NCBI RefSeq assembly: GCF_011400295.1
Contig: NZ_CP049859.1
Location: forward strand, 434,001 to 498,000
DNA from: Erysipelothrix sp. HDW6A
Lineage (GTDB): Bacteria > Bacillota_I > Bacilli_A > Erysipelotrichales > Erysipelotrichaceae
Direction of reading: 5' to 3'
DNA: 64,000 nt
Below, one piece after another: positions 25,522 to 64,000 of the stretch (positions within the stretch are counted from its first letter, which is position 1; each line of letters begins with the position of its first letter). The notes beneath the pieces were generated by a model. That model saw only the letters and a list, made by a program, of their open reading frames with translations. It was not told where the DNA came from and did no database searches. Made by a program: the position numbers and the translations under genes.

Positions 25522-25797
25522 TTATTTTTTGTATTTATCTTTACGATGCCCTACTTCTAAAGCAAGGATAATCAACTCATTATCTTGGATATGGACAATA
25601 ATACGATAATCTCCATATCGATAGCGCCACAAGCCTTTCAGGTTACCAACCAAAGCTTTCCCAAATTGTCGTGGGTTCACTGAACTATCCAAGTCTAGCA
25701 TCAGTTTATTTAACAATATAACTTGCTGTTTCTTGTCAATTTTATTTATTGATTTTTCGAATCCTTTTGAAAAAACAACACGATACATACTACTCAT
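25522..25797 (-). CDS. RelE/ParE-type toxin
   Basis: 91 residues from ATG 25797, overlapping the antitoxin stop by 8 bp; ATG 25788 is an alternative. It has the RelE fold sequence style: YRVVFSKGFEKSINK, then LKGLWRYRYGDYRIIVHI and the C-terminal VGHRKDKY with basic catalytic residues. Probably a ribosome-dependent mRNA endonuclease neutralised by the protein upstream. Confidence 0.92.
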   Translation of the reverse strand: MSSMYRVVFSKGFEKSINKIDKKQQVILLNKLMLDLDSSVNPRQFGKALVGNLKGLWRYRYGDYRIIVHIQDNELIILALEVGHRKDKYKK

Positions 25798-26017
25798 TTT
25801 CAATTTTTTCTAGTAAGTCTGCTATTGGCATAGGTTTTTCACCGCTTGTAAGATATTCCTTATAGGCTCTCTCTCCAACTTGATAGTCATATTCGTCTTC
25901 GATTTTCTCAATCATCGATTTCTTAATAAAATCGCTAATTGTCATACCATTAAACTTTGCGTACTCTTGTATCAGTTTTTTTTCTTTTTCCGTAGTTCGG
26001 ATAGTTATTGTACTCAT
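25790..26017 (-). CDS. RelB/DinJ-like antitoxin (DUF6290 style)
   Basis: 75 residues from ATG 26017 after AGAGGTGAT. N-terminal ribbon-helix-helix (TITIRTTEKEKKLIQEYAKF, ISDFI) for dimerisation and operator binding, then an acidic C-terminal toxin-binding helix. First gene of the pair, as is normal for RelBE. The palindrome at 26039 is just upstream and is the expected autoregulatory site. Confidence 0.92.
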   Translation of the reverse strand: MSTITIRTTEKEKKLIQEYAKFNGMTISDFIKKSMIEKIEDEYDYQVGERAYKEYLTSGEKPMPIADLLEKIENE

Positions 26018-26038
26018 GGTATCACCTCTTGAAATCAT

Positions 26039-26312: not shown

Positions 26313-26386
26313 TGGTGCCGCCACCGAGAATCGAACTCGGAACTGAGCATTACCATTGCTCTATTTTGCCATTGAACTATGGCGGC
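26313..26386 (-). tRNA. tRNA-Thr (anticodon GGU)
   Basis: 74 nt including an encoded CCA. Acceptor stem GCCGCCA/TGGCGGC is perfect, anticodon stem GAGCA/TGCTC encloses ATGGTAA with U33 and anticodon GGU, and the T-arm CCGAG-TTCGATT-CTCGG is canonical. G1-C72 and C2-G71 fit threonine identity. The D-arm is unusual: GTTC AATGGCA AAAT pairs poorly, and the loop resembles that of a tRNA-Gly. Confidence 0.9.
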
Positions 26387-26477
26387 ATGCATGACTATAA
26401 TACTTAATTACGATGAAAAAAGCAACTATTCAAAGGAATGAGTTGCTTAATTTATTTGAATAGCTCTAATGCCAGTG

Positions 26478-26951
26478 TTAATTACTGGTTTCTGCTTTGC
26501 TTTTGCTTATATCAAGATACGTGACTGCATATAAATAACTAACTATGCATACCACATAAGAAGGGAATTGAAGGTATAGTGTTAAATCCATTAATATTGG
26601 ATTGTAAGCAGGAGTGTTCGCATTAAAAATACCACCATTTGCTAGAGAATGTAAACTAAAGAATAAGAAAGCTAGATGACATATTAGAAATAAAAGAAGC
26701 GATATAAAGCTAAGCATTAGATATTTCCGCTTCTTACCACTGTAAAATTCATGCTTTAAGAAAAGTAAAACTACTACGACTAAAACTAACATTGCAAACA
26801 GTAACTGTCTTTTGTAATCAAGAAAGTGATACATGCTATATTTCCAAGAACCATCAGCTGCATCAAATCCAATATCCCATGATATGAAATACCAAATAGG
26901 GAAAATTGAAAAAAGTAGAATAGGTAGTATTAGTGACTTGATTTTTTTCAT
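26478..26951 (-). CDS. Four-helix membrane protein in LytTR operon
   Basis: 157 residues with about four hydrophobic helices (near 5-22, 48-68, 78-103 and 125-147). I do not recognise a family. Starts by one-base overlap (TAATG) with the preceding gene, so translationally coupled. The LytTR regulator is two genes upstream; role unknown. Confidence 0.8.
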   Translation of the reverse strand: MKKIKSLILPILLFSIFPIWYFISWDIGFDAADGSWKYSMYHFLDYKRQLLFAMLVLVVVVLLFLKHEFYSGKKRKYLMLSFISLLLFLICHLAFLFFSLHSLANGGIFNANTPAYNPILMDLTLYLQFPSYVVCIVSYLYAVTYLDISKSKAETSN

Positions 26952-27730
26952 TAATTAGCACTCCTCTCATAAGTTAAACTCGAAGTTTGAATGCGTAATA
27001 CTCTCCCAAGACTTGTTTCATCACTTGGAATGATGTAATCGAGAGTTTGAGTGTCGTTTGGTTCAAGCGTAATATATAGCTCACTATAGTTCGTAGGTAG
27101 TAGCAACTGCTCGCCAAGAAAAATACTCAATGGTTTAAAAGGGGTAATTGCTTGATTCTTTTTGCTAAGGTTTGTTACCGTTACATTAATATTAGAAGTT
27201 ATTGATGGTGGTCTATTGATAGTTAAAAGTAAAGTGTCATCAATCACAAAAGTCCTATCTTTAGTCAAGACAATATTATTGTGGAAATAATAGTTGTTTT
27301 CGAAGGTTTTTATATCCTCGTTCCCTGTGTCAATTAACCATGGATATGCAAATAAAGCTTGAATACTATGTGATTCACCTAAATCCGGGTTTATAGATTC
27401 TAATGCTTTTTGAATATCTTTATAGATCACATTACCGAAGGGATTAATACAGGTGTTATCAGTATCGTTAAGGTCAGCAGCGCAGTAATTGGTATAAGCA
27501 AATGCACTGTAGGAATAATCGAAATAAACAAGCATAACAGTACTACTTACGAATATGATGCTTGAAATAATAAAGAAACTAGCAACACTTAGGGTCTTTC
27601 TTTGCTTACCTCCTTTTAAAGCTGTTAAAGCTTGTTTTGCGAGGTCTTTCCTATAAAGGTAGTAGATGTATGCAAAGATGATAAACAAGGCAATTAAGCC
27701 TATTAATGTAATTGTAAATGTAAGTTTCAT
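26951..27730 (-). CDS. Membrane protein with extracellular domain in LytTR operon
   Basis: 259 residues: helix at about 5-27, short cytoplasmic basic loop (KGGKQRK), helix at about 48-70, then a ~190-residue domain likely outside, with a close cysteine pair (YCAADLNDTDNTC) near 83-95. Start follows AAGGAGAG. Unknown family. Co-transcribed with the LytTR gene (10 bp gap) and the downstream membrane protein. Confidence 0.8.
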   Translation of the reverse strand: MKLTFTITLIGLIALFIIFAYIYYLYRKDLAKQALTALKGGKQRKTLSVASFFIISSIIFVSSTVMLVYFDYSYSAFAYTNYCAADLNDTDNTCINPFGNVIYKDIQKALESINPDLGESHSIQALFAYPWLIDTGNEDIKTFENNYYFHNNIVLTKDRTFVIDDTLLLTINRPPSITSNINVTVTNLSKKNQAITPFKPLSIFLGEQLLLPTNYSELYITLEPNDTQTLDYIIPSDETSLGRVLRIQTSSLTYERSAN

Positions 27731-27739
27731 ACACTCTCC

Positions 27740-28153
27740 TTATAAGCCAATTGCTTCTTTAAACTGGTAGTAGTACGTTCGATTTACATCAAGCCAACGA
27801 TTATGAATGTGTAAGGAATACTTCATATTCAATCGAACTTTAATATCTTGAATGTGCTCAATGTTTATTAAGGTAGATTTGTTGATACGAATCAGTGGTA
27901 AGGTCTCCATAGACTGGAGGTTCTGTGAGCTTGTATAGCTTGAGTTCTCAGTAAATACTGTATTTACACCGTTAATTGTTTCAACGACATACACACTAGC
28001 TAAGGGTAAATATTGCAGATTGTACCCATCACTAACACGGATGCGTGAATTGTTTTCATATAAAATGTAGTCGCCTGTATCCACAATCACCGCATTTTTA
28101 ATTTCAGAAGCTATTTTTTCTTTATTCAGATTACTCGCTACTTGTATCTTCAT
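27740..28153 (-). CDS. LytTR-domain transcriptional regulator without receiver domain
   Basis: 137 residues from ATG 28153 after GAGGTG. A C-terminal LytTR DNA-binding domain spans about 40-137 (LPLIRINKSTLINIEHI). There is no phospho-receiver. Receiver-less LytTR regulators are usually paired with small membrane proteins that inhibit them; the two membrane proteins downstream fit this general pattern, although they look unlike DUF3021. Target unknown. Confidence 0.9.
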   Translation of the reverse strand: MKIQVASNLNKEKIASEIKNAVIVDTGDYILYENNSRIRVSDGYNLQYLPLASVYVVETINGVNTVFTENSSYTSSQNLQSMETLPLIRINKSTLINIEHIQDIKVRLNMKYSLHIHNRWLDVNRTYYYQFKEAIGL

Positions 28154-28276
28154 AAGGCACCTCACTTACACTATAAGTCAATTTTAACAGAAAGTACGTA
28201 AAAGTAGCCATCTTACATGGAACAGTACTTATGTTGCACTATTTCTCATAACAATAATGAGATTAGTCTTTGATTA

Positions 28277-60986: not shown

Positions 60987-61079
60987 GTGATTAATAAAAC
61001 AATAGAATTAAATCAAGTAACTGCTTTGGGAATGCAAATCGAAATGAAAGATTGTCTGGGAGGTGGTAGTGATGAGTAG
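60987..61079 (+). CDS. Possible 30-residue leader peptide overlapping hsdR
   Basis: GTG 60987 after GGAGGTGC; 30 residues ending at TAG inside the hsdR start. Overlap suggests translational coupling to hsdR. Equally it could be chance; no family is recognisable. Confidence 0.3.
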   Translation: MINKTIELNQVTALGMQIEMKDCLGGGSDE

Positions 61080-64000
61080 TGTAAATGGCATTTTTACAGA
61101 AGCGATGCTTGAAGAAGCAGCGATTGAAATTTTAGAAAACCTGGGCTACGATTATGCCTTTGGTCCGGACATCTCTTTAGGTGGAGATTATGAAGAAAGA
61201 AAAGATTATCGTGAGGTGATCCTTTCACATAGAGTGAAAGACGCACTCTTTAAGATCAATCGAGATCTGCCAAGTGAAGCGCTAGAGGAAGCCTATCGTC
61301 AGCTGATTACATTTAACAGTCCAATGCTGGAAGAAAACAATCGCTATTTTCATCAGTTAATGACTGAAGGGATAGAAGTATCCTTTCAGGAAGGTGGCAA
61401 TATCCGTACCAAAAGAGCCTATATTATAGACTTTGAAAATATAAGTAATAATGAATTTGTGGTTGTCAATCAATTTACTATTATAGAAAATGAAGAAAGA
61501 AGACCCGACCTTATCGTCTTTGTGAATGGACTGCCACTTGTGGTCATTGAGTTAAAGTCTGCGAGTGATGAAAATGTAGGGATTGAGGGTGCCTATAATC
61601 AGATTCAGACTTACAAGAGAGATATTCCATCTCTATTCAATTATAATGCCTTTTGTGTTATTTCAGATGGGATCAATGCCAAAGCTGGCACCATTACCTC
61701 CAATGAAGAGTGGTTTATGAACTGGAGAACCGTTGATGGCGAGAATATTGCACCTTTATCTGAGCCTCAGTATGAAGTGCTGCTAGGGGTATGTTTCAAA
61801 AGGAAAGATTATTAGATATTATTCAAAACTTCATTCTTTTCCAGGAGTCGAGAGAAGCAGAGAAGGATTTTGAAGGCAAGAAAATAGGAGATAAAAAATC
61901 CATCATAAAAATCTTGGCAGCCTATCATCAGTACTTTGCTGTTAAGAAAGCGATTGAAAAAACAAAAGAAGCAACAAAGGAAGACGGCGATCGTAAGATC
62001 GGTGTTGTTTGGCATACCCAAGGTTCGGGAAAGAGCTTTTCTATGGTGTTCTATACGGGGGCCTTGTGCGGGAACTGAACAATCCAACCATCGTGGTCAT
62101 AACTGATAGAAATGACCTGGATGATCAGCTCTTTACAACCTTCACCAAATCAAAAGATATTTTGCGTCAGATACCTAAACAGGCAACAGTACGAAAACTT
62201 TCAGATAGCCAGAGAACGAATTATGCTAACGGAAATAGCACTGATGTAAATGGACTGTATGATCTTTTGAATGATCGAGAGTCCGGTGGAATTATCTTTA
62301 CGACCATTCAAAAATTCAAACCAGAAGATGGCGAGATGCCAGTACTCACAGATCGTAAGAATGTCATCATCATTGCCGATGAAGCCCACAGAAGCCAATA
62401 TGGATTAGAGGCCAAAGTGGATGCTAAAACGGGTGAAGTGAACTATGGCTATGCGAAATACCTAAGAGACGCACTACCTAACGCCTCCTTTATTGGTTTT
62501 ACAGGGACACCAATTGATCTAGAAGATCGATCAACGGTCGCTATATTTGGTCATACGATCGATACCTATGACATGACCCAGGCGGTAGAAGATGAAGCGA
62601 CGGTACGGATTTATTATGAAAACCGCATCATTAAACTGGAAACAGATGAAGAAGAGCTGACAAAAATTGATGATGAATTTGAAGAAATCACAGAAGGTCA
62701 GGAAGATTTCGAGAAGGATAAAAATAGAGCCAAATGGTCCAGGATGGAGGCCATTGTAGGTTCTCCCAACAGAGTCAAAAAGCTTGCCGAAGATATCGTC
62801 AATCACTACGAAGAAAAAGCGAAGAGTATCGATGGCAAGGCTATGGTTGTCTGCATGAGTCGCAGAATCTGTGTTGATCTTTATGAGGCGATAACAGCAC
62901 TGAGACCTGATTGGCATCATGATGATATTGATAAAGGGAAAATAAAAGTTGTTATGACTGGTAGTGCTGCAGATAATGAAAAGCTTCAGAAGCATTTAGG
63001 TGGTAAACAACGTAGAGAACTGCTTGCAAAACGCATGAAGGATAATAGTGACGAACTTAAAATAGTAATTGTGAGAGATATGTGGCTTACTGGATTTGAT
63101 GTGCCATCCATGCATACCATGTATATTGACAAACCGATGAAAGGTCATAACCTGATGCAAGCCATTGCAAGAGTTAATCGCGTCTTTAAAGAAAAATCTG
63201 GCGGTGTAGTGGTTGACTATATCGGGATTTTAGAAAGCTTAAAGAGCGCACTAAAACAATACACCAATACGGATCGTCAAAATACCGGTATTGATACGGA
63301 TGTTGCAATTGCTGTTATGCTTGAAAAACTGGAAATCTTAAGAGACATGATGCACGGGTACGATTACTCGAAGTACATGGGGAATTCTCAAGTGGAAAGA
63401 ATGCGTACAATTGTAGGCGGTATGGACTTTATTCTTGGGAAGAAAGAAGAGGACCAAAAGGAATTTAAAAAGACAGCTCTGGAACTAGGTAAGGCCCATG
63501 CTCTATGTGCTGCAACGGATAAGGGGAAAGAAAAGGCTCTTGAAGTTAGCTATTTTAAAGCAGTGAAAGCCAGCCTTGTTAAACTGAAAGAAAAAGACAA
63601 AACACCGTTATCAAAAAGAGAAATTGAAGCAAGACTTCATCAAATGTTGGAACGCTCCATCATCTCAGAAGATGTGATTGATGTATTTGATGTAATGGGA
63701 ATCAAAAGGCCGGAGATCTCAATCCTTTCCGAGGAGTTCTTAAAAGAAGTTCAGGAAATGAAGCAGAAGAACTTGGCGGTGGAGATGCTTAAAAAATTAT
63801 TAGAAGGCAACATCAAAACCATGGAAAAACGAAACCTTGTAAAATCGGAAAAATTCTCTGAAAGGCTGACGAAGGCTCTAAACAAGTATCGAAATCAAGC
63901 ACTTACAAATGCTGAAGTCATTGAAGAGCTTGTAAGAATGGCACATGACATTAAAAAAATGCGTGAGGAAGAGGCAGAACTGGGTCTTAGTGACGATGAA
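61072..64000 (+). pseudogene. hsdR: Type I restriction enzyme HsdR (3' end outside window), two frameshifts as written
   Basis: Restriction and translocation subunit, read here for ~975 residues. ATG 61072 follows GGGAGG. N-terminal PD-(D/E)xK nuclease with D146, E160 and K162 (RPDLIVFV, VIELKSA), then SF2 helicase motifs: Walker A (TQGSGKS), DEAH ([11 protein letters not shown]), and GFTGTP and later motifs ([14 protein letters not shown]). Two one-base losses break the frame: the G-run 61786-61789 and near 62064-62073 (ACCTTGTGCGGG region, where LVRELNNP is expected). Thereafter the frame is open to the window edge. With HsdM and HsdS it cuts unmethylated DNA after ATP-driven translocation. 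Confidence 0.93.

Follow-up and report, generated by a model that had tools for sequence, protein, structure and literature searches.

Introduction

The closest described relatives of the locus treated here are the LytTR Regulatory Systems (LRS). HdrRM is described as a case of membrane sequestration in the available part of PMC13384398. For the LRS of S. mutans, PMC6193735 describes repression of the operon by the adjacent membrane protein in 5 of 5 cases. It gives the published repeats as 9 bp long, with a spacer that is mostly 12 bp but in some operons 11 or 13, and with a distance to the -35 hexamer that is most often 10 bp. The LytTR literature on Erysipelothrix, as far as its accessible text goes, consists of two-component LytTR proteins and one proteome table.

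Here we describe a block of three genes from Erysipelothrix sp. HDW6A, found in a window of 64,000 nucleotides (the whole stretch of DNA that was analysed; positions are those of the window unless a locus is named). The block encodes a receiver-less LytTR regulator and two membrane proteins, ORF2 and ORF3. With a probability of roughly 0.7, we take it to be a positive-feedback LRS in which ORF3, ORF2 or both keep the regulator at the membrane in an inactive state. The three-gene block is undescribed in the accessible portions of the LRS, LytTR and DUF3021 literature searched, which included PMC6193735, PMC13384398 and PMC13104630 and few subscription papers.

Results

Organization of the block

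The three open reading frames were found at the coordinates given by an earlier sequence-only reading, all on the minus strand. The features of the locus are as follows.

27740..28153, minus strand: LytTR regulator gene, 137 aa from ATG (Pfam LytTR, E 1.1e-11).
26951..27730, minus strand: ORF2, a 259 aa membrane protein by hydropathy, unnamed in Pfam and NCBIfam.
26478..26951, minus strand: ORF3, 157 aa, with four predicted transmembrane (TM) helices by hydropathy.
28209..28238, minus strand: candidate LytTR site, direct repeats TGCAACATA-12 bp-TGTAAGATG, from a motif search and a held-out test.
28170..28198, minus strand: candidate activator-dependent promoter, -35 CGTACT, 17 bp, -10 TATAGT, read by eye.
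About 26415..26448, minus strand: putative intrinsic terminator, a hairpin and U tract 3' of ORF3, from folding against shuffles.
26313..26386, minus strand: tRNA-Thr(ggt) flanking the block, from a tRNA scan.

In the window, 9 nt separate the LytTR gene from ORF2, and ORF2 shares 1 nt with ORF3; this tight arrangement, closed by the putative terminator, agrees with the co-transcription first proposed and gives a predicted operon. The putative terminator folds with -11.1 kcal/mol (z -5.1 for 56 nt; 0 of 200 shuffles equally stable), and a longer stretch of 81 nt around it gives z -2.0, with 11 of 200 shuffles as stable. It was missed by the terminator scanner, probably since the rule of that scanner is a loop of 3-8 bases.

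The regulator is, as first read, a LytTR protein of 137 aa without a receiver. Its Pfam LytTR domain covers residues 48-135 and is the sole family above cut-off; receiver domain and histidine kinase, the features of two-component systems, are absent from all three proteins by Pfam and NCBIfam. A profile of the LytTR proteins matched one solved structure, 3d6w, over the LytTR domain only.

Searched for elsewhere, the three-gene block proved to be conserved. It is complete in 6 genomes: that of the window (G000), E. anatis (G002), E. aquatica (G003), E. inopinata DSM 15511 (G004), E. urinaevulpis (G012), and an Erysipelothrix MAG (G114). The LytTR protein was aligned across all 6.

Other parts of the window hold separate observations. 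A ParE-type toxin gene and a DUF6290 gene (likely its antitoxin) lie at 25522-26038, near the tRNA-Thr that flanks the block. An ABC-transporter gene (304-2000) and a type I restriction HsdR-like gene (61063-62078) are each split in adjacent ORFs, as judged by eye; these may be frameshifts or assembly errors.

The two membrane proteins

ORF2 of the window is the cysteine-bearing membrane protein that had been claimed: it has two predicted TM helices, an outside part of 189 residues, and exactly two cysteines (Cys83 and Cys94), both outside the membrane by hydropathy. Its inter-helix loop is rich in K/R, so that the loop is probably cytoplasmic. Among block members, ORF2 is long (259-276 aa) in four genomes and short (178-182 aa) in the other two. 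Nine ORF2 proteins were compared (six block members and three orphans, the latter described below); the predicted outside part ranges from 113 to 237 residues, exactly two outside-part cysteines are present in 9 of 9, and a third cysteine, inside TM2, in 3 of 9. A fourth orphan sequence likewise has both cysteines, for a total of 10 of 10 sequences.

For ORF3 of the window, the four-helix membrane protein of the first reading, hydropathy gives four TM helices, and so does its low-confidence model. Hydropathy also predicts four helices in E. inopinata, E. urinaevulpis and the MAG, and three in E. anatis and E. aquatica. The motif F-x-A-x-D-x-x-W between TM1 and TM2 is invariant in 6 of 6 proteins. 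AlphaFold modelled ORF2 and ORF3 with low confidence (mean pLDDT 53.8 and 60.1, respectively).

Both proteins stay below the cut-off of every Pfam and NCBIfam family, and a PHROGs search did not yield a name that could be used. An assignment of ORF2 to Ig_GlcNase (Pfam E 0.0043) is sub-threshold and was set aside. A Foldseek search with the low-confidence ORF2 model returned none at E <= 0.001; the best match was 3o0l, DUF1425 (E 0.0039).

Repeats upstream of the operon

The search for repeats covered 120 nt before the LytTR start from each of five species; E. anatis was omitted as close to E. aquatica. An expectation-maximisation search was used, with free choice of any 9-base motif at a fixed offset, for 27 offsets. 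The best offset is 21 bp (score 66.1; next 48.9), and a simple matching-letter count over 32 offsets also puts 21 on top, more narrowly (33 vs 30). On a rerun the score was 66.7, against 40.5 +/- 2.6 for dinucleotide shuffles; 0 of 150 shuffles reached the real score, the same count being obtained when the best of offsets 20-22 was taken. The search starts were unequal: 100 on the real sequences and 40 on the shuffled ones.

In a held-out test each species was left out in turn, and a count was made of the source positions whose score equalled or exceeded that of its best upstream site: 7 of 127,942 for the window; 2 of 21,944 for E. aquatica; 1 of 21,944 for E. inopinata; 3 of 19,944 for E. 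urinaevulpis; 1 of 9,732 for the MAG. Two alternative repeat pairs compete in E. aquatica and in the MAG. The window repeats lie 10 bp upstream of a weak -35 hexamer, CGTACT (2/6 consensus), followed after 17 bp by TATAGT; this proposed promoter is unlisted by a consensus scanner requiring 4/6 in each hexamer.

Control loci (L118-L132) were taken from DUF3021 matches, which were present in 22 of 95 family genomes. L124 (wrong ORF), L132 (near-copy of L131), and L130 and L131 (no upstream ORF by the rule used) were excluded; the control comprised 11 DUF3021-type operons, with LytTR genes chosen by position and length, not by domain scan. In the 160 nt upstream of these the peak is again 21 bp (118.0; next 86.4), and most control sites resemble the published ACCACTTAT.

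The block has the LRS features that can be tested: a receiver-less LytTR, a membrane gene directly downstream, and repeats 12 bp apart. The LRS-type repeats upstream of the operon lend weight to the original idea of a LytTR protein paired with a membrane inhibitor; we infer inhibition itself from gene order and promoter anatomy, because no partner is detectably related to known LRS inhibitors.

Other sites and other LytTR genes in the source genome

The source genome (2.04 Mb, one contig) has five LytTR matches. The repeat pattern, with at most 1 mismatch, matches it 21 times, vs 14 for the reversed pattern used as control, so that no regulon can be read from the matches. A site was accepted when it lay outside any ORF of at least 70 aa and within 250 nt upstream of a correctly oriented ORF start. 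This rule fits 2 of the 17 matches inspected: one before a LiaF-type LytTR operon (60 nt), the other before an argS-like gene (117 nt, doubtful). The remaining four of the 21 are the block's own promoter, one match in coding sequence, and two within coding ORFs of the window. E. inopinata has 13 pattern matches, one of them its own promoter, and 0 of the 12 others fit the rule.

The LiaF-type operon lies at 1977-3232 of L016 (G000:C1:1609500-1614500) and encodes a receiver-less LytTR of 145 aa and a LiaF-like membrane protein of 272 aa. The membrane partner matches Pfam LiaF-TM above cut-off and LiaF-like_C below it (E 0.0013); the match 60 nt upstream has the 21-bp spacing. This operon resembles the HdrRM type, so that two or more LRS are probably present in the species. 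At 1695-2615 of L014 (G000:C1:776500-781500), an ABC-ATPase-like region is fused to a LytTR domain, and ABC transporter genes come next after this fusion gene (both by eye).

Two small proteins with double-glycine-leader-like starts are encoded near the block of E. urinaevulpis (L012 6621-6911 and 7893-8213). A bacteriocin link there is unsupported, Pfam Bacteriocin_IIc being below cut-off and the repeat pattern, with at most 3 mismatches, matching six times in the locus vs 4.8 expected.

Relatives of ORF2 and ORF3, and their possible role as output

The LytTR protein could instead autoregulate without inhibition; ORF2 and ORF3 would then be what it controls, an output pair that might serve envelope protection, immunity or transport, among other roles. 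This we regard as unlikely, on the distribution of ORF3 and on the promoter.

Scans of genome contigs confirmed 5 of 35 stretches with the LytTR alignment, all Erysipelothrix, and 0 of 49 with the ORF2 protein. The ORF2 profile matched 17 of 195 family genomes at E <= 0.01: 5 training genomes, the MAG with its complete block, 4 orphans, and 7 weak matches (best 1.4e-4). Among 315 order genomes it matched 10 at E <= 0.001: the 6 blocks, the orphan G011, and G060, G213 and G215. The orphans G001, G005 and G006 were missed by this search at that threshold; G213 and G215 were judged unrelated from their ORFs. The ORF3 profile gave 19 matches at E <= 0.01 in 272 family genomes: the 6 blocks, none weaker than 1.5e-46, and 13 others, none stronger than 6.8e-4. 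No additional complete block was present among the ORF2 and ORF3 profile matches inspected (weak ones aside). No relative was found in plasmids and phages searched with ORF2, or in viral contigs searched with the ORF3 alignment.

The orphan ORF2 relatives (309-310 aa) occur in G001, G005, G006 and G011, with no adjoining LytTR gene; their genes adjoin one resembling a PLP-dependent decarboxylase.

L037 4193-5125, L038 4727-5656, L039 4449-5378, L040 4232-5161: orphan ORF2 relatives in four Erysipelothrix genomes.

Orphan and block ORF2 profiles compare with 93% probability (E 3.1e-7), which supports homology; the alignment takes in the second cysteine and the motif that follows. Because ORF2 relatives occur without LytTR, ORF2 need not serve LytTR, a point in favour of an output pair, and ORF3 is the likelier direct inhibitor. 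An output pair would also accord with the bacteriocin-like peptides near the E. urinaevulpis block (Pfam below cut-off) and with the indirect nature of the case for inhibition by the membrane proteins. Against it, the spacing and position of the repeats fit LRS operons, in which, for S. mutans, the accessible part of PMC6193735 has the adjacent membrane protein as a repressor in all five cases. All six strong ORF3 matches among the 272 family genomes, moreover, lie inside complete blocks, and the 10-kb E. urinaevulpis locus has no repeat pair with at most 2 mismatches besides the operon's own.

Comparison with DUF3021 and LiaF

The partners had been called unfamiliar, with DUF3021 identity named as the finding that would tell against this; that identity was checked and failed. 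DUF3021 (PF11457) has no Pfam match in ORF2 or ORF3 of the window or in the other partner proteins scanned, and PF11457 is absent from the whole source genome; the ORF3 proteins scanned (3 of 6) match neither DUF3021 nor any other Pfam family above cut-off. In hhalign, ORF3 aligned with 13 DUF3021 proteins from the same bacterial family at 0.9% probability, vs 99.4% for the positive control (two subsets of the same DUF3021 set against each other); ORF2 against DUF3021 also gave 0.9%.

Similar length (148-157 aa), four predicted helices and a place downstream of a LytTR gene would suit ORF3 as a highly diverged DUF3021-type inhibitor, with ORF2 as an accessory of an ordinary LRS. This reading is compatible with the best explanation, but the hhalign values and the scanned ORF3 proteins leave shared structure as the sole possible link, and we hold it to be quite improbable.

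LiaF-type domains were found in neither ORF2 nor ORF3 of the window by a scan that detects LiaF-TM in the partner of the L016 operon. DUF2154, the domain of HdrM/LiaF-like membrane inhibitors, corresponds to PF09922.

Conservation and relocation

The LytTR protein matched in 5 of the 13 genus genomes, the window's included, and the block is complete in 5 of 5; the sixth complete block, that of the MAG, is in a genome assigned to a different genus of the same family. Gene order is kept in 6 of 6 blocks, and ORF2 and ORF3 overlap by 1-4 nt in every one. The 6 genomes represent five neighbourhoods, because E. anatis and E. aquatica share one place. By eye these are galU and tRNA-Thr in the window; rimP and polC in E. 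anatis and E. aquatica; an ABC-transporter region in E. inopinata; bacteriocin-like peptides in E. urinaevulpis; and a PTS gene in the MAG, where the contig ends shortly past ORF3. Being complete in five neighbourhoods, the block seems to move as a unit.

Between E. anatis and E. aquatica, dN/dS is 0.05 for LytTR, 0.19 for ORF2 and 0.13 for ORF3, that is, purifying selection on all three genes. The dS of the block genes is 0.31-0.49; that of the neighbour rimP is lower (0.07) and that of the other neighbour higher (0.57). Adjacency of three functionally unlinked genes by chance would be eased by the small sample (6 genomes, none from outside Erysipelothrix broadly taken), but is scarcely credible with an identical order in spite of five neighbourhoods, an ORF2/ORF3 overlap everywhere, and this selection.

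A galU match is present in every one of the 13 genus genomes. The tRNA scan of its site covered 12 loci (the window and 11 relatives; G008, with a fragment as its match, was excluded). In 8 of the 11 relatives tRNA-Thr(ggt) stands 102-183 nt from galU and the site is empty; in the window the distance is 1.9 kb, and the gap is occupied by the block. No tRNA was found at the galU site of G004, G009 and G010. From the empty sites in 8 of 11 relatives, the block apparently entered the window site as one piece; the alternative is its one-piece loss from the other genomes.

Discussion

The reading of the block as a positive-feedback LRS is supported by computed operon structure, conservation as a unit, relocation, LRS-like spacing and position of the repeats, and predicted topology. 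With no signal, ORF3, with or without ORF2, would keep LytTR inactive at the membrane. An extracellular event, sensed by the outside part of ORF2 or by ORF3, would release LytTR; the freed regulator would bind the 21-bp-spaced repeats upstream of its own promoter and probably activate the operon, the positive sign of this feedback being our assumption. Activation would then amplify both LytTR and its membrane brake, and may reach any further targets.

A more specific form of this LRS has three components: ORF3 as an anchor that sequesters LytTR, and ORF2 as a separate outside sensor with a cysteine pair that acts on ORF3, in a cassette mobile as a unit with exchange of sensor size. We put it forward as tentative and, taken as a whole, rather doubtful. 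The further proposal within it, that the cysteine pair is a disulfide switch or a ligand-binding loop, is an equally speculative one.

What is new are the membrane partners, which lie outside the known LRS inhibitor families tested; the LRS architecture itself is known. The new LytTR-type module of the sequence-only reading stands as to the conserved block and its partners, and gives way as to kind, which is still that of the published LRS. A separate partner that reaches outside the membrane and bears two conserved cysteines would offer a direct handle on signal input. The locus also suggests that LRS promoter layout is usable for finding partner families missed by domain searches.

Operons of ECF sigma factors and anti-sigma factors are alike in having a cytoplasmic regulator, a membrane inhibitor and autoregulation (a comparison made in the accessible part of PMC6193735); the block differs in having a LytTR protein where those operons have a sigma factor. 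The LiaF-type operon of L016, itself HdrRM-like, shares with the block a receiver-less LytTR, a downstream membrane protein and 21-bp-spaced repeats; its partner matches LiaF-TM, whereas ORF2 and ORF3 are without LiaF match. The LytTR and DUF3021 operons of the same family (L118-L123, L125-L129) are alike in gene order, in the 21-bp repeat period and, in most, in the distance from repeat to start codon; they differ in that ORF3 is not DUF3021 by profile and in the sequence of the repeats. Closest are the LRS of S. mutans (HdrRM, BrsRM, SMU_433/434, and others), which according to PMC6193735 have a receiver-less LytTR gene first and a membrane gene downstream, and whose promoter is directly preceded by 9-bp direct repeats with a 12-bp spacer. 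The Erysipelothrix block, in contrast, has two membrane partners of unnamed families, a repeat motif of about TGTAASTTA in place of one like ACCACTTAT, and an ORF2 whose predicted outside part is large and bears a pair of cysteines.
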